From assembly GCA_947168485.1 (NCBI GenBank), contig CAMVLZ010000001.1, forward strand, positions 1-39,704: DNA of 39,704 nt, written 5' to 3'. The DNA comes from an uncultured Bacillota bacterium (GTDB lineage Bacteria; Bacillota_I; Bacilli_A; RF39; UBA660). Position numbers and translations under genes: made by a program. The notes beneath the pieces were generated by a model. The model had not been told where the DNA came from. It made no database searches and was given only the letters and a program-made list of their open reading frames with translations. The first letter of the stretch is position 1; every line of letters begins with the position of its first letter. Of the stretch, positions 21,575 to 39,615 are shown one piece after another.

Positions 21575-21648
21575 GCGGATGTAGTTTAATGGTAGAACCT
21601 CAGCCTTCCAAGCTGACTACGGGAGTTCGATTCTCCTCATCCGCTCCA
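21575..21648 (+). tRNA. tRNA-Gly(UCC); probable prophage attachment gene
   Basis: GCGGATG/CATCCGC acceptor, TCAGC-CTTCCAA-GCTGA anticodon arm, TTCGATT T-loop, encoded CCA. Confidence 0.95.
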
Positions 21649-21660
21649 GAAGAATATTAA

Positions 21661-21687
21661 ACTAGGTTATTATACCTAGTTTTTTTG
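21661..21687 (+). terminator. Rho-independent terminator of tRNA-Gly
   Basis: ACTAGGT-TATTAT-ACCTAGT followed by seven T. Confidence 0.85.
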
Positions 21688-21708
21688 CTGAAAAATATAG
21701 ATTACTTT

Positions 21709-21766
21709 ACACGTTAGAGTTTTGCTAGTCATTAGAATTAACTAACGTGTATCACACGTGTATCAC
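21709..21766. repeat. 11-bp tandem direct repeat plus inverted copy, candidate integrase arm sites
   Basis: ACGTGTATCAC at 21745-21755 and 21756-21766; inverted pair ACACGTTAG (21709-21717)/CTAACGTGT (21742-21750). Confidence 0.45.
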
Positions 21767-21924
21767 AAAAGTTGCATTAAAAATCTAAACTCATTATACT
21801 TTAGTTGTACTTATAAAGGTACATTACGGACTTAATTCACTCTCAAAGTGAAAATAAGCAAGAAGGTTAAATGCCTTCTTAATTTGGTAGATTATTCTTT
21901 CATAGAAAGACCCCCTTTCACAAA

Positions 21925-21955
21925 AGACTAGGTTTTTAAATACCTAGTCTATTTT
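21925..21955 (-). terminator. Terminator downstream of the endolysin
   Basis: Inverted repeat GACTAGGT...ACCTAGTC after the endolysin stop, with a T-rich flank. Confidence 0.55.
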
Positions 21956-22711
21956 TTATGCTACAATTAATTTTCCTTTTTTTAATTTATCTAACATTTG
22001 TATATTTTGTTTAGGAGAACCTACATAATTTTTAATACCATTTGCAGCTGCTATTTTCTTTCTATGTGTAAAAGAATTATCTATATTCATTGACTTTAAA
22101 GCGTCTGCTATTGATCCTGATTTACCTGTGTACTTTTTATAATAAGATATCTTTTTCTTTTTAGGTAAGTATTTCCACTTCTTGTTTAATCCTTTTATAA
22201 TTTTAGTATCATTCATATAGCAACTATCTTCTAATGAATATTCTTTAGGGAAACACCATATACCATATTTGTTCTTATGCCAATTACTTATAGTGTATTT
22301 TGCTTGTGCTATTTCTATATGACAATGTACTCCTGTACTTCTTGCTCCTCCACCTGCTTTAGAACCCATATTTCCTAATTGGTGTCCTTGAGGTACTATT
22401 TGTCCTATTCTAGCGTCAAAGGTTTCATCGTGAGCTGTCATAAATGTAGCATAGTCTACTCTACCATTCGCAAAATTAACTTTTGCCATACTTTGCCACA
22501 AACCTTGTCCGTTTGCTCTATCACTCCATATTAACTTGCAAGTACAAGGAGCGTAATAAGGGTATTTAACTCCTTTTTTTGCTCCTCTTATATCATATGC
22601 TTTTGTTCCTTTATGACTTCCTACTCCATAATCTTGTGTTATGTAAACGTCAGTAAAAGGACATAGAAAGTTTTCTCTTCCATTGCTTTTGCTAGTCTGT
22701 TGTTTCTTCTT
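21956..22711 (-). CDS. Endolysin with M23-like peptidase domain; proposed AAG start
   Basis: HKGTKAYDIRG and GVHCHIEIA zinc motifs; C-terminal wall-binding-like domain. The ATG at 22720 abuts the SD (TAGGAG-ATG, zero spacing); in-frame AAG at 22711 is 9 nt from AGGAG. Confidence 0.8.
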   Translation of the reverse strand, partial: KKKQQTSKSNGRENFLCPFTDVYITQDYGVGSHKGTKAYDIRGAKKGVKYPYYAPCTCKLIWSDRANGQGLWQSMAKVNFANGRVDYATFMTAHDETFDARIGQIVPQGHQLGNMGSKAGGGARSTGVHCHIEIAQAKYTISNWHKNKYGIWCFPKEYSLEDSCYMNDTKIIKGLNKKWKYLPKKKKISYYKKYTGKSGSIADALKSMNIDNSFTHRKKIAAANGIKNYVGSPKQNIQMLDKLKKGKLIVA

Positions 22712-22944: not shown

Positions 22945-23190
22945 TCACTTCCTTTTTATTTCATTGATTTCATTTTGCATATTGTTAATGTTTTCTTCTA
23001 ACTTTGCTAATTTAATTCCAAAATTGTTGTGTACTTGTACTTTTTCATTTAACACTTTTACGTCTTCTTTTAAGTCATTAATCTTGTATTCAAACAATTC
23101 GTTGTTTGCTTTACTTGTTAAAATAGTTGCTACTATTGAAGGTATTGCTACACTTAATCCTGATATCAATGCTGTTATAATTCCGTTCTT
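22945..23190 (-). CDS. XhlA-like small membrane/coiled-coil lysis protein; proposed AAG start
   Basis: In-frame stop TAA just upstream, then AAAGGAGG-TATAAAA-AAG AAC GGA ATT; no ATG/GTG/TTG before a TTG 28 nt after the SD. Confidence 0.65.
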   Translation of the reverse strand, partial: KNGIITALISGLSVAIPSIVATILTSKANNELFEYKINDLKEDVKVLNEKVQVHNNFGIKLAKLEENINNMQNEINEIKRK

Positions 23191-23205: not shown

Positions 23206-23790
23206 TTAATCTACCACTTCAACGGTTAGTTTAGTATATTGTCCTCCACCTACTACAACTGTTCCTGTTGCTCCTGAACGTACCGCAAGATCAATATAAT
23301 CTCCACTTGAAACTGGTACTAATATTTCAGTTATTGCTAAATTCATAAAGTTAGTTGCGTTTGTCCAACGGTTTGCTGCGGTTCCCATTATTGCTCCATT
23401 TCTTCTAATGTTTATTTCAATATCATTAGCAATTCCTCTAACTATTCCACAAGCACTAACCTTTACATAACTAACTCCACTTCCAATTGTTATTCTATGT
23501 GTTGAAGAATTAAATGTTAATTTACTTCCTATTGAAGCATTTAAAGTATTCATATTTAAAGTATAATATGTCCATGCTGTTCCTATACTTACGTCAGTGT
23601 TAGCACTTAATCCTACTGTAATTATATTTTTGTCATATACTTCAGTTTCAACATTTTCTAATTCGGTTGCGTTTGCATTTATTATATTTTTTATTTCGTT
23701 TAGATCACTAGCATTGCATTTATTTATATCAGCTACATTGCTATTTGTGTTTATTGCTACTTTATCTGAATATGATATTCTTTGTGCCTT
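23206..23790 (-). CDS. Baseplate/receptor-binding-like protein; proposed AAG start
   Basis: Beta-rich C-terminal domain; ATG at 23799 abuts the SD AGGAG; AAG at 23790 is 9 nt from it. Confidence 0.6.
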   Translation of the reverse strand, partial: KAQRISYSDKVAINTNSNVADINKCNASDLNEIKNIINANATELENVETEVYDKNIITVGLSANTDVSIGTAWTYYTLNMNTLNASIGSKLTFNSSTHRITIGSGVSYVKVSACGIVRGIANDIEINIRRNGAIMGTAANRWTNATNFMNLAITEILVPVSSGDYIDLAVRSGATGTVVVGGGQYTKLTVEVVD

Positions 23791-23802
23791 AATAATCATC
23801 TC

Positions 23803-25767
23803 CTATTCTATTCTTAACTTTTGTGTTAAGGTGTAATAATTTCCAATTGATAAATTAGAAGCGTCTATTGTCATATATGTTTGACTATTATCACTTGAAT
23901 TAATATCTATTGTATCTATTGCTTTTTCAATATAAATTGTATCTGTTATTGTATAGTCAGTTGTATCGTTTTGTATAATATCTAATCCATATAAACTGAT
24001 AGTTCCGTCATTCCAATTTATTTGTATATTTCCTATCTTTTTACTATTCATAGTGCTTTCTCCAAAGTTGTTAGCTGTATTATTTATATTTGTATTTATG
24101 TTTGTTGCAGTTTGTTGATATTGTATATTTGTATCTTCATCTATTACATTTATTGTATTTATGAAGTTTACATAAAGTGTTTCATATATGTTTTTATTAA
24201 TAATATTATTATCTGTGTTCAATATAATATTAGTTAATCCATACAATTCTTTATCTTTTATATTAATGCCGTTCAACATAGTGTTTGGAACTTCAACAGT
24301 TGAGGTAGTAGTATTTTTAAAAGTTGTTAGATTATACAAATTTCTACCAAATACAATGTTATTATCACTATTATATAGAACACTAGAATGTGGAATTAAA
24401 GAATTATAATTGATATAACTAGTTCCATTGTAATTAAGATTATTATATATTTCTTTTATAATTTTTATGTTGAAGAATGTCCTTCTAAAGTTTTGTGATA
24501 TAAGAGAACTAGACACAATATTATAAATATTAAATGAATAAACCATAGTATATTCCATTACATATTTTTGATTACTTGCTATTTGTATTGGTTCCCATAT
24601 ATCATTTTCTAATCTTTGATAATTAATATCAGCAGTATTATTTGAATAATTAAAGTTGTTGCAATACCACAAATATAATTCTCCGTTCAAACTATTAATA
24701 AATATTCCTTCACGGGACGTGTTATAGTCGAAATTGCCTATATTTTTTATATATATTTCTTTTAATTCATTTGTACTATATGTATATTTATATAATCCCA
24801 CATATCTTGGTATAACTTCGGGAGACCACCTTTGATTATTGATAACAAAATATACATTGTCATAATCTATAAAACTAACCTGGTTTCTCATTGCTACACT
24901 ATCAACATAAGGTCTTATTTCTTCCCTTTCTGATAAAATTTCTGTCAATGTGGTTCCGTCCCAGGAATACGCTGTAATTGGATCAACATTTTTTGTTATT
25001 ATTGCCCTAAAACTTGCATTATCGTCATTATCAAAATATACATTTATTCCTCCATATAAGTAAGAAACGTAAGCAGTTGATACTTTTTGCGACCATTCAT
25101 TGCTAGAACCTACATTTATTGTTAAATTAATTATTCTAACCCCTTCATAATATATATTGTTTCTACTTGTAGACGTTTTTCCTGCTATTATATAATGAGA
25201 AGCTGTTGGGTTTTTTACTATATCAATACAAAAAATATTTTTATAAGCGTCTGGAAAATTATATGATTTTCTTAAACTTACACTATAATCATTGTTATAG
25301 TCAGGTGCTGAAACATTATTTAACATTATAATTCTTTTTGGGTTTGTTGTGATATTATCAGTTCCTGTTGGTAGTGCAAATATTGTACTATCTACACCAA
25401 CAAAAGTTCCGTCTTCAATTTGTATCATTTTTTGAATAGGTCTTAACAACGTGCCACTTGAAAACTCATATATTGTTTTTATAGGTTTCATATTTTGATC
25501 TAACACCATTATAAAACCTCTACTATCATTTAATGCTGTTTTCCCTTCAGGAACATATCCTCCATATAAAATAAAATTACCATTTGTAGTTGACTGAATT
25601 ACGTCCATTGGCATAAAATTTGTATAATTTTCTTCTGGTATAAATCCAGCAAATTCAGTTCTTAAAATATTGTTAATTTCATCTAAATTCTGACGTTCAT
25701 CTGGTGCTGTTGTTGATATATTTCCTGTTATATATTCGCCTAACAACTCTTTATAATCATTTGTCTT
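23803..25767 (-). CDS. Tail fiber/tip protein; proposed AAG start
   Basis: Large ORF after the tail-associated gene. TTG at 25746 lacks a spaced SD; frame extends upstream through AAG ACA AAT GAT TAT AAA GAG, with AGGTGG-7 nt-AAG. Confidence 0.6.
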   Translation of the reverse strand, partial: KTNDYKELLGEYITGNISTTAPDERQNLDEINNILRTEFAGFIPEENYTNFMPMDVIQSTTNGNFILYGGYVPEGKTALNDSRGFIMVLDQNMKPIKTIYEFSSGTLLRPIQKMIQIEDGTFVGVDSTIFALPTGTDNITTNPKRIIMLNNVSAPDYNNDYSVSLRKSYNFPDAYKNIFCIDIVKNPTASHYIIAGKTSTSRNNIYYEGVRIINLTINVGSSNEWSQKVSTAYVSYLYGGINVYFDNDDNASFRAIITKNVDPITAYSWDGTTLTEILSEREEIRPYVDSVAMRNQVSFIDYDNVYFVINNQRWSPEVIPRYVGLYKYTYSTNELKEIYIKNIGNFDYNTSREGIFINSLNGELYLWYCNNFNYSNNTADINYQRLENDIWEPIQIASNQKYVMEYTMVYSFNIYNIVSSSLISQNFRRTFFNIKIIKEIYNNLNYNGTSYINYNSLIPHSSVLYNSDNNIVFGRNLYNLTTFKNTTTSTVEVPNTMLNGINIKDKELYGLTNIILNTDNNIINKNIYETLYVNFINTINVIDEDTNIQYQQTATNINTNINNTANNFGESTMNSKKIGNIQINWNDGTISLYGLDIIQNDTTDYTITDTIYIEKAIDTIDINSSDNSQTYMTIDASNLSIGNYYTLTQKLRIE

Positions 25768-27257: not shown

Positions 27258-29072
27258 CTAACCTCCATAACCATAATTGTAATCATTCTTTGCTCCACCA
27301 GAGAATGTTTTTATTTTTGATACTACTTGTCCTAATGGATCAGTTTCAACATTTACGTTATTAACCACATTTACGTTAGGACTTAATGTATTATTCATTG
27401 TTCCTGTCATACTAGGACTTAAATTAAACATACCATTAATTGCTTTATCTAATTCAGGTCGCATTTTTTCTAATCCTTCAGTATAACCTAACATTGAAAA
27501 TCTACCAATAATTGCAAACTCTTTTGACGGAGAATGAATACCTAGAACATTTTTCATACCTTTTAAAATACTTTTTCCTAGTCCTTTGAATTTATTTATT
27601 ACATAATCTTTCATATCTTTTGCACCATTCCAAAGTCCTTTTATAATATTTTTACCCACGTCTTTCATTTTTGAGAATTCCTTTTTCAAAGCACTAACAA
27701 TATTTGTTATAATCTTCGGAACATTTCTAACCAATGTTGGAATACCCTTGATAATTCCACTCCACAATTTCATAGGAATTTGAATTGCAGCAGCTGCCAA
27801 TTTTGGAAATGCCCTGATTAAAGCACCAACCAATTTTATTATTATAATAGGCGCTTTTTGTTGCAATACTGGAATAGTTGCGATTATTCCGTCAATTAAT
27901 GCGAATATAATTTTTATTCCTAAATCGATAACTAAATCAATGTTCTCTAGCAACTTCATTAATGCGTCTAAAAGTGTTGAAATAACCATAGGAATAAGCG
28001 TTGGAATTATCTTGATTAGAGCATTTATTACCTTTATTGTCATACTTATCATCATACTGATTATAGTAGGTAATGACTTGACTAAAATATTCAAAATGCT
28101 TGGCAATGCAGAAATTAAACCTGTCATTAATGCGCTAACTGATGATATTAACGAAGGTAAAAGTCTATTAATAAACGAAGGCAAACTTTTTGTTATTATT
28201 GTAATTAATCTAGGTAATACCTTCGCAACCCCAACCATTGCTTTTTCAATTATAGGTATTAAATTATTTGCGAATGTTCCAGCTGCACCAACAAATTGAT
28301 CTATGAGTTTGTCTAGGTTCGCTCCGTCTTTTGAAAAACCTGCGATTAAGTTTTCCCACGTTGCTTTCATCATATTCATAGAACCTTGTATTGTTTGACT
28401 TGCTTCTTTTTCGGTTCTATTTAATGCTCCTGCTGCTTTAACATAATGTTGAATAACGTCTAGTATTTGATCGTTTGTTAGTTCTGAAGTATCTTTTATA
28501 TTTTTATTCAAAACTCCACTCTTGTTTGCTGCTTCTATGAAACCTTCTTTAGTCCCTTTGATACCTACATTTAAGTTATCTAAATATGAATAAGTTCCTT
28601 TTAACGCCCAATTTATTGCACCTTGATATTGTTCTACTGTTCCACCATAGGTATTATATAAGTCAGAAGACATTTGTATCATTTTGTTTGTATATTCAAT
28701 AGCATTTGCATTTTTACCTATTCCATTATTAATAATAGAATAAGATCCTTCGAATGCTTTTAAATATTCGTTTTGTGATAGTGTTAAGTTCTTATATGCT
28801 TCTTCACTCATTTTTGCTACTTTTTGCATATTTTGTGAACCCTTACCAAATAATGCCTCTAGTCCACCATTTAATTGCTCGAATTCTGAATATGCTTGAA
28901 CTGATTTTTTAACAAGTCCTGTTATCGCAGCAGTTGCTACTACTGTTCCAGCAACAACACTTTTTCCTATTAAAGAACCTATTCCTCCTAACTTACCTTT
29001 TATTTTAGTAAGTTTGCTGTCCATATCTTTGCTTTCGCCTTTAAAGTAAAATACTACTGAACCACCATTCTT
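27258..29072 (-). CDS. Tape measure protein; proposed AAG start
   Basis: Hydrophobic helical repeats, IKGLWNGAKDMKDYV. Frame extends 16 codons upstream of the annotated ATG (KNGGSVVFYFKGESKD) to AAG located GGAGG-7 nt-AAG. Confidence 0.85.
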   Translation of the reverse strand, partial: KNGGSVVFYFKGESKDMDSKLTKIKGKLGGIGSLIGKSVVAGTVVATAAITGLVKKSVQAYSEFEQLNGGLEALFGKGSQNMQKVAKMSEEAYKNLTLSQNEYLKAFEGSYSIINNGIGKNANAIEYTNKMIQMSSDLYNTYGGTVEQYQGAINWALKGTYSYLDNLNVGIKGTKEGFIEAANKSGVLNKNIKDTSELTNDQILDVIQHYVKAAGALNRTEKEASQTIQGSMNMMKATWENLIAGFSKDGANLDKLIDQFVGAAGTFANNLIPIIEKAMVGVAKVLPRLITIITKSLPSFINRLLPSLISSVSALMTGLISALPSILNILVKSLPTIISMMISMTIKVINALIKIIPTLIPMVISTLLDALMKLLENIDLVIDLGIKIIFALIDGIIATIPVLQQKAPIIIIKLVGALIRAFPKLAAAAIQIPMKLWSGIIKGIPTLVRNVPKIITNIVSALKKEFSKMKDVGKNIIKGLWNGAKDMKDYVINKFKGLGKSILKGMKNVLGIHSPSKEFAIIGRFSMLGYTEGLEKMRPELDKAINGMFNLSPSMTGTMNNTLSPNVNVVNNVNVETDPLGQVVSKIKTFSGGAKNDYNYGYGG

Positions 29073-29141: not shown

Positions 29142-29609
29142 TTAACCTGCTGTTGCAGTTCCTATTAAAGTCATTTCGAAAGAGAATTCGCTAACGTCTT
29201 CAGCAGCTCCTCCTAAATCGCTTAATGATAGATTTACGTCCGCAGTATAAGTAGTATAAGATAATGCGCTATTTTCTACTGCTGTTAATAAATCAAATTT
29301 AATTTCAACATTGTTGAATTGTTCTATTGTACCTTCACTTAATAAAGTGTGTACTTTTCCTAATAATGCTAAATCTCCTGCGTTATTTGCATCTAGTTTT
29401 AGTGTTCCTGATAATACAACACTAGCACCAGTAATTAAACGTCTTTGAAGTGCGTCACAATAAACGTAGAAGTCTTGTGTTTCTAAATCAGTATCAATTC
29501 CTACTTCTGAAGTAGTACATACTTTACTCCATACAGGAGTTGCAGTTGTACCAGTATTAATTGATAAATCTTTAATTAATTGTCTATTTGATATAAAGAA
29601 ATTTGCCTT
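29142..29609 (-). CDS. Major tail protein; proposed AAG start
   Basis: Position and beta-rich composition. Track start GTG at 29624 lies inside the SD (GTGAGGAGG); GGAGG-AATAGT-AAG GCA AAT TTC. Confidence 0.7.
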   Translation of the reverse strand, partial: KANFFISNRQLIKDLSINTGTTATPVWSKVCTTSEVGIDTDLETQDFYVYCDALQRRLITGASVVLSGTLKLDANNAGDLALLGKVHTLLSEGTIEQFNNVEIKFDLLTAVENSALSYTTYTADVNLSLSDLGGAAEDVSEFSFEMTLIGTATAG

Positions 29610-32489: not shown

Positions 32490-33494
32490 TTACTTATATT
32501 GTTCTATTACGGACTTTTGCTCTTTGATTTTTTGATTAATCTTTCTTATCTTCTGATTAATCTTGTCAATGTCTTCATAACCACCTAATTCTTTATAGAT
32601 TTTTTTATCATTCCTTAATCTACGTTTTTTTAATTCTAGTGCATTTATTTTTTGCAATGAATTATAAACTTCTGGTGGACTTGATACTGAAGGCGTTGTC
32701 TTTATTTCGCTTGAATAGTTTTCAATAGGGTGTTTACAATTTGGGTGCTTTAATCCTCCGTCTAATGCTACTTGTATGTTAGGGTATATTGGATTTACAC
32801 CTGTTAATGAGTAAACTCTATCTTCATAAGGTAAGCAATAAGGACAGCTTCCAAAATGCCCTGGAACATATACTAGATCATTTTCAGTCTTTATTGCGTT
32901 ATCTAATGTTTCATTCCATACACTATTCGTTAAGTTTGTGTTATATACCATACTGTTATAACTTGCTATGTCATGGTACGCTACTATTTGTCCTTTTTTG
33001 TTATAGTAAGGAACTACTTTTTCGACTTTATCGAACTTTGATACTTTTTCCAATAAGTATTGTGCTTTATCTATCTCTTTTGTCTTAATTGTTCCTAAAC
33101 TCTTACCATAATAGTTTGTTATTACGCGTATATACTTATCTCTCGCTTTCTTTTCGTCAAAGTCTGATATTTTATACTTTAATTTCTCAATGTCTTTTAT
33201 TTTAGGTTTTTCGAATACATTATTAACCTCATCTGGATTAATGTCCTTAATCATTTTTTCTACTTTCTCGTAGTTTCTATTTGGTTTTGAAATTATCTTT
33301 TCTATTTCTTTTTTAAAAGTTTCTACTCCAACCATTCCTAGTAAGAACACAAAGTATGTATATTTTGCTTTATCTAATTCTTCGTACTTTTTGTTTTTGT
33401 CTTTATCTACTTCTCGTCTTATGTATTCTTCTATCTCTGCTTCGGTATAACCTTTATCTTGTAAATCTTGAATTACTTTTTCATATTCAAACAT
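32490..33494 (-). CDS. Minor capsid protein (Mu F-like)
   Basis: GSCPYCLPYEDRVYSLTG...GLKHPNCKHPIENY. Confidence 0.75.
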   Translation of the reverse strand: MFEYEKVIQDLQDKGYTEAEIEEYIRREVDKDKNKKYEELDKAKYTYFVFLLGMVGVETFKKEIEKIISKPNRNYEKVEKMIKDINPDEVNNVFEKPKIKDIEKLKYKISDFDEKKARDKYIRVITNYYGKSLGTIKTKEIDKAQYLLEKVSKFDKVEKVVPYYNKKGQIVAYHDIASYNSMVYNTNLTNSVWNETLDNAIKTENDLVYVPGHFGSCPYCLPYEDRVYSLTGVNPIYPNIQVALDGGLKHPNCKHPIENYSSEIKTTPSVSSPPEVYNSLQKINALELKKRRLRNDKKIYKELGGYEDIDKINQKIRKINQKIKEQKSVIEQYK

Positions 33495-34834
33495 TAGATT
33501 TCTCCAAATTCTACATTAATCCTATCTGCTTCCTTTTCGTATTCTTCTACTAAATCGTCAGTTTCTATGTCTTCATCTATTAATTTATTTAATAATGGAG
33601 CAACTATCTTAACTCTTGTCTTATATGGTATTGCCATTGTTCTTTGGATTTTATTTAAAACGTCTATCTTTTTCATATCGTCAAATCTTTCGTTAGAACC
33701 ATAGTCCCACATTAATTCAGTAGGTAATTCATTTATAGTTATGTTTTGACTTTGTTGTAGTCTTACTATGTTTGCAAGTAAGTTATCTATTTGACTTGAT
33801 AATTGTGTTTTAATTGCTTCTATCATCATTTCACTTGCATTTGCTGATAATTCTACGTTTGCTTTATTCATATATGCGTCTTTTTCATAACCGAATGAAG
33901 CTGTACTTAATCCTGCCATTTGAATTATTTGATAGTCATAGAATTTAAAAGACTTTTCGTATTCATCTATTCTTATATTTCCTTGTAAGAATTCAAATAG
34001 TTGTTTATCTTTATCTCCAGGAAGTAATGTAAAGTAGTCATTTAAACTATTAACACTCATTGTTCTTACGTTATAAGTTGTATCTCCTGGAACAAATTTC
34101 AATGGATTACTTGTTGTTTGATAGTGTTCTGTTGCTACTATCTTTGTTTTTGTCTTTTCAATTTCTTCAGCTATTGTATTTACAATTAACATTTCTTCAT
34201 TTAATAGTTTTTCACTATCTTTAAAGAAGTTTTCTCCAATGTCTATATTTACTAATACTTCATAAGGAAGGTTATACACTGGAAGGTATTCATTTCCCGT
34301 TAGATTATTGAAACGTCCTAGTTGTATTCTAGTCCATTCTTTTGCATTCTTTGTCTTTTCGAATGCTTCAAATTCAATTGTACTTGTTCCTTCTTCTATC
34401 TCAATGTGTCTTTTTAACATTAATTGAGTATCTTCTATATCGAAGTCTTGTATAATATCTGCTTCTTTTACTTTGTCAAATTTTTGTACTAGATTATGTA
34501 TATCATTCTTTTTGATACATTCTAGGTATACTTTATCTTCATATTTATGTAAGTAAATGAAACTTTCTTCTTCATATACTGCTAGTTCTAATGCTTCTTT
34601 TAAAGTAGGCATTAACCAACCTATTTCTAGTCCTTCTGTTTGTGTCATTAGTTCACTTCCAAAGACTTGATTAACTATATATGAAGCGATTTTCTTTGCA
34701 GTTGGAGCAACAACATATTTACTTTCGTATTTTATGTTTGGCACTCCATTTGTCATTCCTGGTACTGATACCTTTGTTTTTACTTGTATATAAGGTGCTT
34801 GTAATACATTAAAAGGTCTTAAACTTCCGTTCTT
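33494..34834 (-). CDS. Portal protein; proposed AAG start
   Basis: Portal-like sequence. Frame extends 26 codons upstream of ATG 34756 (KNGSLRPFNVLQAPYIQVKTKVSVPG) to an AAG after AGAGGAG+9 nt; in-frame TAG just before. Confidence 0.8.
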   Translation of the reverse strand, partial: KNGSLRPFNVLQAPYIQVKTKVSVPGMTNGVPNIKYESKYVVAPTAKKIASYIVNQVFGSELMTQTEGLEIGWLMPTLKEALELAVYEEESFIYLHKYEDKVYLECIKKNDIHNLVQKFDKVKEADIIQDFDIEDTQLMLKRHIEIEEGTSTIEFEAFEKTKNAKEWTRIQLGRFNNLTGNEYLPVYNLPYEVLVNIDIGENFFKDSEKLLNEEMLIVNTIAEEIEKTKTKIVATEHYQTTSNPLKFVPGDTTYNVRTMSVNSLNDYFTLLPGDKDKQLFEFLQGNIRIDEYEKSFKFYDYQIIQMAGLSTASFGYEKDAYMNKANVELSANASEMMIEAIKTQLSSQIDNLLANIVRLQQSQNITINELPTELMWDYGSNERFDDMKKIDVLNKIQRTMAIPYKTRVKIVAPLLNKLIDEDIETDDLVEEYEKEADRINVEFGEI

Positions 34835-35172: not shown

Positions 35173-35376
35173 TTAGATTTTTCGTGCAACTTTTCCTATA
35201 AACTTATAATGATTTTTATATATATGATATATTTCTTGCTCTTTGCAACTCTTACATAACACTTTTATTTCTAATGGTATTTCTTGACTTATTCCTAATC
35301 TCTCTAACTTCTCCAAGTATTCTTCTATTTCAACTTCACATAGATAACGCTTACTTTTCTTGCAACGTATTATCAT
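35173..35376 (-). CDS. Small Cys-containing phage protein (putative zinc-binding)
   Basis: MIIRCKKSKRYLCEVEI...KVLCKSCKEQEIYHIYKNHYKFIGKV; overlaps the terL stop. Confidence 0.55.
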   Translation of the reverse strand: MIIRCKKSKRYLCEVEIEEYLEKLERLGISQEIPLEIKVLCKSCKEQEIYHIYKNHYKFIGKVARKI

Positions 35377-36740
35377 ATTTGAGGACACCTTCCTGTATCT
35401 ACGAATACTCTTATTATGTATCTTAATGCGTCTATGCTATGATCTAATTCTTTCTTATATACATTTGTTCCTGTTATCTCACTTTTTATTTTGTCATATT
35501 GATAACTTTCTAATTCTATAAGTCCTTCATCTTTTCCACTAAATACTGGAGTTCCGTCTTCAGTAAAATATCTTATGCTAGGAGTGTCTAATACTTTAAG
35601 GAATTCTTTATAGAATAAACTTTGTAAATGTTCTACTCCTTCTGATACACTTCCTGCGCCTTTTTTAGAAAGACTATGGTGTATTCCGTCAGCTATAAGT
35701 CTATTATCAAAATGACTTGCTTCACTATCTATTACTGTGTCAGTTATTGGAACATTGTCATATTGTTTTCCTAGATATCTTATGAAGTGTACTAATTGCC
35801 TTGAATAGAATTCAGTAGTAGGGTTATCTCCTTCTCTTGAAGGATCATGATAGTATATTCCTAATCTTACTAACTCCCAACAATTTTGTACTTTATCATA
35901 AACAAGCGCTATTGGTACAAAAGTAGTGGGATTTACACTACCATAATCTATTCCTATTCCTATTTCTCTTATTATGTAATTGTCTAATGAGTTAATAGTT
36001 GGAACATTTGGAAACACTCTACCTTCTGCAACAGTCCATTGATTATATATTTTTTGTTTCTTTAATGTATCATCTGGAAACATATCTAATACTTTCTTTA
36101 TTGCTTCTTCAGTATTTAGTAAAGGATTATCATAAGGGAAGAATGTATAATGCTTCGCTTCTGGTTTATTATCTATGTATTTAATTTTATAAGGGTGTCT
36201 ACTACTACCTTCAACATTGAAACTATGTATTGTCTTTAAATATGGATGATTAGCGAATGATACCTCTCTACCAGGTAATTCATCGAAAGACGCTTGTAAT
36301 TGTCTTTGAGTGTATATTCTTGCGCTTTCGTCTACCCATTCTAGTATTAATGGTTTTCCTAGTATCTTGTTGAAACTTGTTATGTTGTTAAATCCAAAGA
36401 AGAATATCTTTAAATTGTATATCTTTAGATACTTTTCTTCTGAACTACTCCAACTCAATTCGTATTCACTTTTATTGCTCCAACCAAACTTATTGAATAT
36501 TTGTAAGAAGTTCTCTACTATATTTGATTTTAGAGTATCAATAGTCCAACCTACTATGCAACCATTGTATTGTTTATCTTTGTCATAGTTATATAGATTT
36601 TTAGCATATTCTAAAATAGAATGACATATTGAGAAAGTCTTTCCACTTTGAGCTGATCCTAATACATATATTTCAGGTATGTTAGGACTAGTTATATCAT
36701 TCTTCAGTTTTAGTTGTTTCTTCGAAAGAGTTAAGTACAT
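35373..36740 (-). CDS. terL: Terminase large subunit
   Basis: VLGSAQSGKTFSICHSI (Walker A), LILEWVDESARI (Walker B), IGIDYGSVNPTTF and DSEASHFDNRL (nuclease). Confidence 0.9.
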   Translation of the reverse strand: MYLTLSKKQLKLKNDITSPNIPEIYVLGSAQSGKTFSICHSILEYAKNLYNYDKDKQYNGCIVGWTIDTLKSNIVENFLQIFNKFGWSNKSEYELSWSSSEEKYLKIYNLKIFFFGFNNITSFNKILGKPLILEWVDESARIYTQRQLQASFDELPGREVSFANHPYLKTIHSFNVEGSSRHPYKIKYIDNKPEAKHYTFFPYDNPLLNTEEAIKKVLDMFPDDTLKKQKIYNQWTVAEGRVFPNVPTINSLDNYIIREIGIGIDYGSVNPTTFVPIALVYDKVQNCWELVRLGIYYHDPSREGDNPTTEFYSRQLVHFIRYLGKQYDNVPITDTVIDSEASHFDNRLIADGIHHSLSKKGAGSVSEGVEHLQSLFYKEFLKVLDTPSIRYFTEDGTPVFSGKDEGLIELESYQYDKIKSEITGTNVYKKELDHSIDALRYIIRVFVDTGRCPQI

Positions 36741-36924
36741 TTTCTACCTCTTTTAATTTCTTGTCTACCTTTTTAAGTTTCTTACTTGCTTCTTTACCAC
36801 ATTCACTTTTAACGTCTTCAATAATAAGTTCTTTCTTTTCTAATTGTAGTTTTTCTTTTTCACTTACTATTCTTCCGTTGCTGTCCTTAATAAGATAGTT
36901 CTTGCCTACTTTGATAAACTCCTT
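36697..36924 (-). CDS. Small coiled-coil phage protein; proposed AAG start
   Basis: Track start GTG at 36933 lies inside the SD (AAAAGGAGTGATT); GGAG-8 nt-AAG GAG TTT ATC. Confidence 0.55.
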   Translation of the reverse strand, partial: KEFIKVGKNYLIKDSNGRIVSEKEKLQLEKKELIIEDVKSECGKEASKKLKKVDKKLKEVENVLNSFEETTKTEE

Positions 36925-38055: not shown

Positions 38056-38416
38056 TTAATCCTCCTACATTCTTTACCATACTTTCTTTTAGATCTTGTT
38101 CTATTTCTCTATTTGACAAGTATATTTCAGGTATCTTGTTAATACGTTTTTGTTCCCTCCAGTATTTCTTTTCTTCTTTATCTTTTATTTTTGATAAATC
38201 TATTGTTCTTGACTGCAATATTTTGTATAAAGGTTCACTTTCTGGAATACTATTAAATTTCATATTGAATTCGCTTAATGATAAGTCTAGAAATTCTTTA
38301 TAACTTATATCTTTGTACCTGGAGCAATAAAACGCATAAATTTGCTCTAAATCGTTTTCATAAGCAAAACATATTATTGTTTTATTATTTCTTGCTGGGC
38401 GTGTCTGCTTTAGCAC
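38048..38416 (-). CDS. Phage hypothetical protein; start uncertain
   Basis: ORF overlapping its neighbours; no clear SD. Confidence 0.45.
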   Translation of the reverse strand: MLKQTRPARNNKTIICFAYENDLEQIYAFYCSRYKDISYKEFLDLSLSEFNMKFNSIPESEPLYKILQSRTIDLSKIKDKEEKKYWREQKRINKIPEIYLSNREIEQDLKESMVKNVGGLNE

Positions 38417-38816
38417 CTGTTAAAGCTGATACTAATTCAGTACTAAAGTTTTCTATTTCTTCTTCAGTAAGTCCCATTTCTACAACTAATGTTATTATGT
38501 CATAACCTGTTATCTTTTCTACTATGCTTGATAATATAATTTGGTTTTCTTCTTCATAATAACTTTTTTCTAATTCATCCCAACTAGAACTATCATAGAA
38601 AGTTTTTCCTTCTTTTTTAACTTCTTTTACTAAATCACTTTTTGTTAATCCTTCTTTTGCTAAATCTTTTATAAGTCTATTTCTTGATCTATGTGTAGCA
38701 GAAGTTAATTCTTTTAATAGTTCTACTGTTCTTTTAATTTCAAATTCGTGTTTTTCTCCATTGATTTCACATTCTAACTTTGTTGTATCATTATCAATTT
38801 TAATAAATTTATACAT
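38385..38816 (-). CDS. Phage hypothetical protein (tail-assembly-chaperone-like size, position atypical)
   Basis: AGGAGGAAAT-ATG; acidic small protein. Confidence 0.5.
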   Translation of the reverse strand: MYKFIKIDNDTTKLECEINGEKHEFEIKRTVELLKELTSATHRSRNRLIKDLAKEGLTKSDLVKEVKKEGKTFYDSSSWDELEKSYYEEENQIILSSIVEKITGYDIITLVVEMGLTEEEIENFSTELVSALTGAKADTPSKK

Positions 38817-38829
38817 ATTTCCTCCTAAA

Positions 38830-38904
38830 TGGTGGCAGGGAAGGGATTTGCACCCTTGTTCTTCAGCTTAAGAGACTGACGAGATACTACTTCTCCACCC
38901 TGCA
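38830..38904 (-). tRNA. Phage initiator-like tRNA with anticodon CUU (would be auto-called tRNA-Lys(CUU))
   Basis: TGCAGGG TG GAGA AGTAGTA TCTC G TCAGT CTCTTAA GCTGA AGAAC AAGGG TGCAAAT CCCTT CCCTGCC A CCA. Full cloverleaf; U1xC72 mismatch, A11:U24, G26, CTC-anticodon-TAA loop and xxCAAAT T-loop match bacterial tRNA-fMet; anticodon CAU changed to CUU. Confidence 0.88.
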
Positions 38905-38926
38905 ATATAATGTACTTTATAAGCAC

Positions 38927-38985
38927 CATAGAATAGATAGACACAATGTCCTCAAGGGCGTTTGAATTACACTATCTATTCTACG
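38927..38985 (-). ncRNA. Hairpin element upstream of the initiator-like tRNA
   Basis: 12-bp perfect inverted repeat TAGAATAGATAG (38929-38940)/CTATCTATTCTA (38972-38983), extendable to 14 bp with a U-G pair valid on the minus strand; 31-nt loop. Confidence 0.45.
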
Positions 38986-38996
38986 CTATCTACAAA

Positions 38997-39380
38997 TTAC
39001 CACCTTTGTTTGTATTCTCTTTTTATTAATGTTTTGCCTTTAGAGTTTTTATCGTTTCTATGTTGATATTCAAAATCTTGTAATAAGTATTCTACTATTT
39101 CTCTTTGTTCTAATGTAGGTTCATGTAATTGGTTATTTATTATCTTGAATATTTTATTTAATGTTATGTATGTGTTTATGTCTTTATATTCTATTAAATG
39201 TAAATATTGATGAGGTGTAGACATTAATAATGCAATATTATTTTGTTCTAGTTTTCCACCAAATTCTTTTTTTATAATATGATGAGCTGTTAAATCTTTT
39301 TTAACTAATTTGTAATTCATCCAGTCTAAATTGCTTATTGGTTTATATATTTTTAACATTTCTCTAGTTATTTGTTTCAT
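38997..39380 (-). CDS. HNH-type endonuclease-like protein
   Basis: LTAHHIIKKEFGGKLEQNNIALLMSTPHQYLHLIEY. Confidence 0.7.
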   Translation of the reverse strand: MKQITREMLKIYKPISNLDWMNYKLVKKDLTAHHIIKKEFGGKLEQNNIALLMSTPHQYLHLIEYKDINTYITLNKIFKIINNQLHEPTLEQREIVEYLLQDFEYQHRNDKNSKGKTLIKREYKQRW

Positions 39381-39432: not shown

Positions 39433-39462
39433 CAAAAAAGATAGAATTTATGATCCTATCTT
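39433..39462 (-). terminator. Intrinsic terminator
   Basis: Minus AAGATAG-gatcataaatt-CTATCTT followed by T-run. Confidence 0.6.
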
Positions 39463-39615
39463 ATATATTTTATATTTTGATTTGTTCCTGAATAGAAAAA
39501 ACTTCTTTATTCCTTCTTTAGTAAAATGACAAGCGTCTTTGAACCATTCGCTTTCTTTGTCAAATATTAATGTTGGTTCTGATATATAACCTGTTTTAGT
39601 TTCTATAATATACTT
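39448..39615 (-). CDS. Small phage protein (55 aa); proposed AAG start
   Basis: Not in ORF track. AAAAGGAG-ATGAGTTTT-AAG TAT ATT ATA GAA; ATG abuts the SD, AAG is 9 nt away. Confidence 0.5.
   Translation of the reverse strand, partial: KYIIETKTGYISEPTLIFDKESEWFKDACHFTKEGIKKFFLFRNKSKYKIYKIGS

Follow-up and report, generated by a model that had tools for sequence, protein, structure and literature searches.

At positions 38830-38904 on the minus strand of the window, by which we mean the whole 39,704-nucleotide stretch that was analyzed, lies the gene for a tRNA with anticodon CUU and an encoded CCA end; it is located in that part of the window which belongs to a phage of a gut bacterium, where it precedes the terminase genes and is on the strand shared with the late genes. 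ARAGORN calls a tRNA at exactly these positions, naming it tRNA-Lys(ctt) from its anticodon, and the Rfam model RF00005 matches it with a score of 55.8 bits (E=1.6e-9), flagging the terminal pair of the acceptor stem as non-standard. Both results confirm the complete minus-strand tRNA with a CUU anticodon that an earlier, sequence-only reading of this DNA had described, and inspection of the sequence (TGCAGGG TG GAGA AGTAGTA TCTC G TCAGT CTCTTAA GCTGA AGAAC AAGGG TGCAAAT CCCTT CCCTGCC ACCA) bears out the structural details given there, i.e. an unpaired U1xC72, an A11:U24 pair and an anticodon stem (A29:U41, G30:C40, U31.G39) in which G30:C40 is the only one remaining of three G:C pairs. Two further features, the replacement of G19 by U and the presence of G at position 55 of the T-loop, had not been mentioned. 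The upstream neighbor of the tRNA is an HNH endonuclease gene (38997..39380, minus strand) and a 143-aa gene lies directly downstream (38385..38816, minus strand); both have ATG starts, that of the latter following AGGAGG, as does the gene for the terminase large subunit (35373..36740, minus strand), which is not recoded.

Between the HNH gene and the tRNA there is a conserved hairpin element (38905..38996, minus strand), consisting of a stem, GTAGAATAGATA...TATCTATTCTATGG, and then a small hairpin, GTGCTTATAAAGTAC. The element was located in 49 pattern-matched viral stretches, many of which are phages with terminase and HNH genes like those of the window; across phages it takes the form of a stem xATAGAGTAGATA...TATCTATTCTATGG and a small hairpin GTGCTT-ATAA-AAGCAC, with compensatory changes, and it is often present in tandem with variable loops (seen in the window, L011, L012, L013, L020, L021 and L024). 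No Rfam match was obtained for the element in the window; it may be a structured RNA or a packaging site. A tRNA-Gly(TCC) gene is present at the boundary between host genes and phage lysis genes (window 21575-21956), a likely integration site; the other phage end lies beyond the contig.

The ARAGORN names, Lys for the window tRNA and Arg for those of related phages, are assigned by anticodon and fit an ordinary elongator, tRNA-Lys here and tRNA-Arg in the relatives, that has an unusual acceptor end and serves a codon used by the phage. The window tRNA indeed has the U35, U36 and discriminator A73 of an elongator tRNA-Lys, but neither the paired 1:72 nor the body with pyrimidine 11 and purine 24. 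When it was compared by BLAST with 50,697 phage records, tRNA-Met genes came out best; the top match, in Caulobacter phage CcrBL9, is annotated tRNA-fMet and the next is a tRNA-Met of Synechococcus phage S-CRM01. In a tree of 32 tRNAs, the recoded tRNAs and the phage fMet tRNAs (that of CcrBL9 and the phage CAU tRNAs) form one group with support of 100/97, outside of which fall the host tRNA-Lys(CUU) (GTCTCCTTAGCTC..., the host-body reference for the Lys comparison), the host tRNA-Arg(CCU) and 11 further host tRNAs. Of the 19 tRNAs identified in the draft genome, none is the host's own initiator, which is probably absent from the assembly. Judged by its sequence, the window tRNA thus belongs among the initiator tRNAs and not with host tRNA-Lys(CUU). 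It shares ancestry with the fMet tRNAs, has no Watson-Crick 1:72 pair and has purine 11 and pyrimidine 24 (A11:U24). Two defining features of tRNA-fMet, the three G:C pairs at 29-31:39-41 and the CAU anticodon (replaced by CUU in the window and by CCU in most of its relatives), are missing, because of which we regard it as a new kind of initiator and not as a member of tRNA-fMet.

Relatives were discovered by searching viral contigs for the HNH gene, which yielded phages carrying a tRNA at the corresponding position, and by scanning around the hairpin element in the 49 viral stretches, which yielded initiator-bodied tRNAs with anticodon CAU (L021, L022) or CCU (L012/L031, L040, L042, L068 and L075, the last from a Clostridia genome bin). 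Two pattern scans added further CCU phages of the main family (L102, L108, L118, L162, L205, L206, L207) and others outside it (L121 and L204, CCU; L139, CUU). Twelve related phages have an initiator-bodied CCU tRNA at the same locus as the CUU tRNA of the window, and this recurrence implies that the window tRNA is not a chance occurrence. In the main family, which, judging by the contig sources, we take to be rumen phages, the habitat not being given by the tools, the tRNA lies just upstream of the large terminase gene. The first scan pattern misses the window's own tRNA by one base and is therefore a test for the CCU kind; part of the anticodon loop was fixed in the pattern that gave the largest tRNA set, and the loop conservation of that set arises partly through this selection, a bias from which the hairpin-derived set is free. 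Pattern scans of host genomes (395 relatives at class level, plus 396 genomes from the order to which the L075 bacterium belongs) gave no copy except L075's own, a result that, for the first pattern, bears on the CCU kind. Two matches were rejected, L096 as a chance match within a coding gene and L203 for a body that is not of initiator type despite its CCU anticodon. A CCU initiator-like tRNA without encoded CCA was also observed at 1335-1410 of a human faecal phage scaffold (L227, MT838485.1), the 5.2 kb of which contain no clear AGG starts.

Position 1:72 is unpaired in 15 of the 16 recoded tRNAs, through four different combinations (C-A, A-A, G-A and U-C), and A11:U24 is kept in all 16, so that the paired 1:72 and elongator body in relatives, which had been named as grounds for refutation, did not occur; together with the tree group, this supports the proposed initiator origin. 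The sole exception is the CCU tRNA of L204 (3010-3085), which has an initiator body and a paired U1:A72. The tree, the 1:72 mismatch and A11:U24 lead us to reject the elongator Lys/Arg reading, to which we leave only a very small residual probability and which, moreover, does not predict the AAG and AGG starts described below.

A tRNA of initiator descent might also be decaying, its anticodon having drifted, with the AAG and AGG starts being mis-called genes or coincidence. The D-loop and T-loop are off the canonical pattern and two of the anticodon-stem G:C pairs are lost, as decay would have it, but the remaining stem pairs are intact in 319 of 320 cells across the 16 recoded tRNAs, with compensatory changes, and the mismatch is kept through different bases (U31.G39, present in 16/16, was partly fixed by the search pattern). 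On sequence grounds, this combination of 1:72 mismatch and stem upkeep is the pattern to be expected where selection keeps an initiator end and prevents decay into a pseudogene. The loop anomalies are themselves correlated: among 798 tRNAs from all fetched loci, GG at the D-loop site occurs with U55 in 693 cases and with G55 in 1, and its absence occurs with G55 in 57 cases and with U55 in 14. This base 19/base 55 covariation (p=2e-71, uncorrected for kinship) also speaks against decay and suggests an alternative D-loop/T-loop contact (Y19-G55), apparently common in phage tRNAs.

The evidence that decides the matter comes from beyond the coordinates of the tRNA itself, namely from the start codons of the phage genes, which were analyzed by counting in-frame codons located 3-10 nt after a strong Shine-Dalgarno sequence within the first 45 codons of open frames. 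In the window phage, AAG is found at this spacing 9 times versus 1.1 expected (p=1.9e-6), the highest enrichment of any codon, ATG included, although at one of the nine sites (AAG 32408) the codon directly follows the ATG start of a gene, and we do not include it among the AAG starts; in the host part of the window there are no AAG and no AGG codons at this spacing. Support from homology comes from the portal gene (33494..34834, minus strand, phrog_533), the AAG start of which (34834-34832) has the Shine-Dalgarno sequence AGGAGTGGAGG upstream and reads AGAGGAGTGGAGGTAT-AAG-AACGGAAGT; in a gap-free alignment this AAG stands opposite ATG in 7/7 homologous portals. That alignment takes the place of the pooled homology run, which for the window gave mostly gapped, offset matches. 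The use of AAG as a start codon, a consequence of a CUU initiator, is borne out in the same phage by both enrichment and portal homology.

Further AAG starts are assigned to other minus-strand genes, among them those for tail proteins and lysis. The tail tape measure gene (27258..29072) starts with AAG at 29072-29070, with AAGGAGG upstream and its first ATG 16 codons in; the probable major tail protein gene (29142..29609) starts at 29609-29607, with GAGGAGG upstream, its sole upstream canonical codon, a GTG, lying against the Shine-Dalgarno sequence, and its homologues in L050 and L006 have an ATG start within one residue of the window AAG. The endolysin gene (21956..22711, phrog_9066) has AAG at 22711-22709, 9 nt after AGGAG, an ATG there touching the Shine-Dalgarno sequence; in the endolysin of the CCU phage L207 the codon that stands opposite this AAG, at residue 1, is an AGG start, a switch of start codon between orthologs. 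A late-operon gene of unknown function (23206..23790) likewise has AAG 9 nt after AGGAG and an ATG touching the Shine-Dalgarno sequence, and a short gene upstream of a holin-like gene (22945..23190) has AAG with AAGGAGG upstream and no canonical start upstream of the AAG. In a 75-aa gene (36697..36924), the AAG, 8 nt after AGGAG, aligns with a Met codon of the homologues, the own starts of which are further upstream. A 55-aa ORF (39448..39615) has a probable AAG start 9 nt after AAGGAG, with no homologue checked, and, from reading of the sequence, a long ORF (23803..25767) has a possible but uncertain AAG start (25767) with a weak Shine-Dalgarno-like AGGTGGTG.

In the 12 CCU phages it is AGG that is enriched at Shine-Dalgarno spacing (19 versus 1.4 expected, p=2e-15), AAG not being enriched (6 versus 6.9 expected); in phages without such a tRNA, the values are 3 versus 1.4 for AGG and 8 versus 7.7 for AAG. 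In counts of this kind over whole contigs, AGG occurs 7 times versus 0.5 expected in L207 (p=1.6e-6) and not at all in the CAU phage L021. Counts made by homology, which are independent of Shine-Dalgarno sequences, give the same picture: of 86 starts in CCU phages homologous to ATG-started genes, 52 are ATG and 19 AGG, the next codon being ATA with 3, and among 183 homologous starts in control phages 139 are ATG and none AGG. The portal start reads AAAGGAGTGATTTAA-ATG-GCAGAAGTAACAAAAGATTGG in the CAU phages L021 and L022 and AAAGGAGTGATTTAA-AGG-GCAGAAGTAACAAAAGATTGG in the near-identical portal DNA of the CCU phage L075. It is AGG in 10 of the 12 CCU phages; in all ten of these portals an in-frame stop immediately precedes the AGG, the next ATG is about 18-81 codons away, and the stretch from the AGG to that ATG is conserved as protein. 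AGG-started genes in CCU phages also include that of the probable major capsid protein (RALGINLAQKYEKKV versus MALGINLAQKYEKKV). Nevertheless, more genes of the CCU phages start with ATG than with any other codon, and in L031 and L162 the portal keeps ATG while other genes have AGG, implying that recoding proceeds gene by gene. AGG makes up about 0.45% of codons in CCU phages and controls alike.

In 7 of the 12 CCU phages (L031, L102, L108, L118, L162, L205 and L206), the gene for the large terminase subunit, which follows the tRNA, is interrupted: insertions of 5-8 nt at its ATP-binding motif (e.g. GGC TAA CT GGC) introduce a stop codon in frame and shift the frame; no such breaks were present in those related tRNA-less phages that were read. 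The breaks look like programmed frameshifting, ribosome hopping or homing-endonuclease resistance. Re-initiation at AGG within these interrupted genes was considered and rejected, AGG not being consistently in the needed frame.

The match between codon and anticodon is reciprocal, CUU going with AAG and CCU with AGG, and neither pattern appears in phages with a CAU tRNA or with none. Outside the main family, L139 (CUU) has an AAG start on a capsid-like gene, L121 (CCU) an AGG start on a portal-like gene and L204 (CCU) an AGG start on a terminase-like gene (L204:6758). The support in these three phages comes from one or two genes per phage, and AAG over the whole L139 contig (2 versus 0.67 expected, p=0.15) is not significant. 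As most recoded phages share ancestry, the codon counts are not fully independent; the independent lines are the window, L139, L121 and L204. The agreement of codon with anticodon in each group (p=2e-6 and 2e-15), at homologous ATG positions, is not what a decaying tRNA with mis-called or coincidental starts would produce, and we consider that reading extremely improbable.

We give equally little credence to the proposal that the AAG and AGG starts are read weakly by the host fMet tRNA, keeping expression low, and that the phage tRNA is unrelated to them. Weak non-AUG initiation by endogenous components is known in cell-free systems (PMC13232202), but capsid and portal proteins are needed in bulk, and such reading would not account for a start codon that tracks the anticodon across phages and is absent where the tRNA is absent. 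Pairing of the anticodon with a downstream Shine-Dalgarno sequence as a regulatory loop was also rejected; CCU and CUU do pair in this manner, but the starts of distant genes are left unexplained.

What can be read from the DNA is the tRNA, its initiator features and the reciprocal anticodon/start-codon match; there are no expression, charging or protein data. From these we consider it highly probable that a naturally recoded initiator tRNA starts translation at its cognate AAG on a set of the phage's own genes. The changed anticodon would direct initiation to AAG. The genes on which AAG stands in place of ATG lie downstream of the tRNA on the same strand and are for the most part late ones, for structural proteins and lysis; the related phages have the same arrangement with CCU and AGG. 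Charging is inferred to follow the anticodon, with Lys for CUU and Arg for CCU. Bacterial Lys identity rests on the anticodon (triplet UUU) and A73, and Arg identity on C35, U/G36 and A20 (PMC9976931). The window tRNA has U35, U36 and A73 together with C34, which is shared by the host's own tRNA-Lys(CUU), and its charging by LysRS is an inference; the CCU tRNAs have C35 and U36 but lack A20, making Arg charging less sure. Formylation may be expected from the unpaired 1:72 end and A11:U24 (PMC8576571), and the start-codon usage lends indirect support to formylation and to direct use in the P site. The mismatch, which bars initiators from elongation, would also exclude this tRNA from it, so that host tRNA-Lys and tRNA-Arg should go on reading internal AAG and AGG codons in the usual way. 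Counting against this mechanism are the loss of two of the three anticodon-stem G:C pairs, which matter for P-site selection in E. coli, the paired 1:72 of L204 and the fact that some genes are not recoded. Engineered AAG/CUU pairs do initiate in vitro (PMC13232202).

Somewhat less firmly, though still with good confidence, we propose that several phage lineages have thereby acquired a private second start, with (formyl-)Lys or Arg as the first residue of the proteins and with late synthesis that is gated by the tRNA and independent of the host initiator. The likely use would be as a private start signal, AAG or AGG genes being translated only after the phage tRNA is made, and we put the chance that the benefit is such a gate for late genes at about even. 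VapC toxins cleave tRNA-fMet (PMC10264068), and an alternative gain would be that late proteins are still made if a toxin of this kind cuts the host initiator tRNA, an inference that we hold only tentatively. A related but slightly more doubtful possibility is that the tRNA mainly protects against host nucleases with initiator or lysine tRNAs as their targets, acting as a decoy or as a substitute, and that the start codons followed its change. Phage tRNAs with anticodon-loop changes have been proposed to evade host nucleases, and VapC toxins have the relevant target (PMC10264068), but a decoy would not need cognate start codons. The two ideas are compatible, as a nuclease-proof initiator would need cognate starts.

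Comparison with known systems places the recoded tRNAs closest to bacterial tRNA-fMet, including the phage CAU copies of CcrBL9 and S-CRM01, with which they share the body, the unpaired 1:72, A11:U24, G2:C71 and C3:G70, and from which they differ in having CUU or CCU for CAU, one of three anticodon-stem G:C pairs, and cognate AAG or AGG starts. Phages that reassign stop codons with suppressor tRNAs also couple an altered-anticodon tRNA to a codon change, often in late genes; in the present case, however, initiation is recoded instead of termination, and codon meaning inside genes is unchanged. Phage tRNAs that evade host anticodon nucleases likewise have an altered anticodon loop but keep their decoding role (PMC10264068), whereas that of the recoded initiator changes. 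Engineered initiators, such as the amber initiator (CUA) and the AAG/CUU and other pairs used in vitro, operate on the same principle of a new anticodon directing a cognate start (PMC8576571, PMC13232202); the phage case differs in being natural, in using sense codons and in having many target genes. In the open-access literature we came across no natural case of an initiator tRNA with an altered anticodon.

Gene finders limited to ATG, GTG and TTG will truncate or miss portal, capsid and tail genes of such phages, and protein engineering could take over the phage tRNA/start pairs as they are for orthogonal initiation. Such pairs also open to direct test the long-standing question of which features an initiator tRNA must have and which amino acid can begin cellular proteins. 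To our knowledge, start decoding by tRNA-fMet(CAU) has been regarded as fixed in bacteria and their viruses, natural reassignment being known only for stop and internal sense codons; a natural recoded initiator with cognate starts would mean that initiation, too, can be recoded, on a subset of genes.
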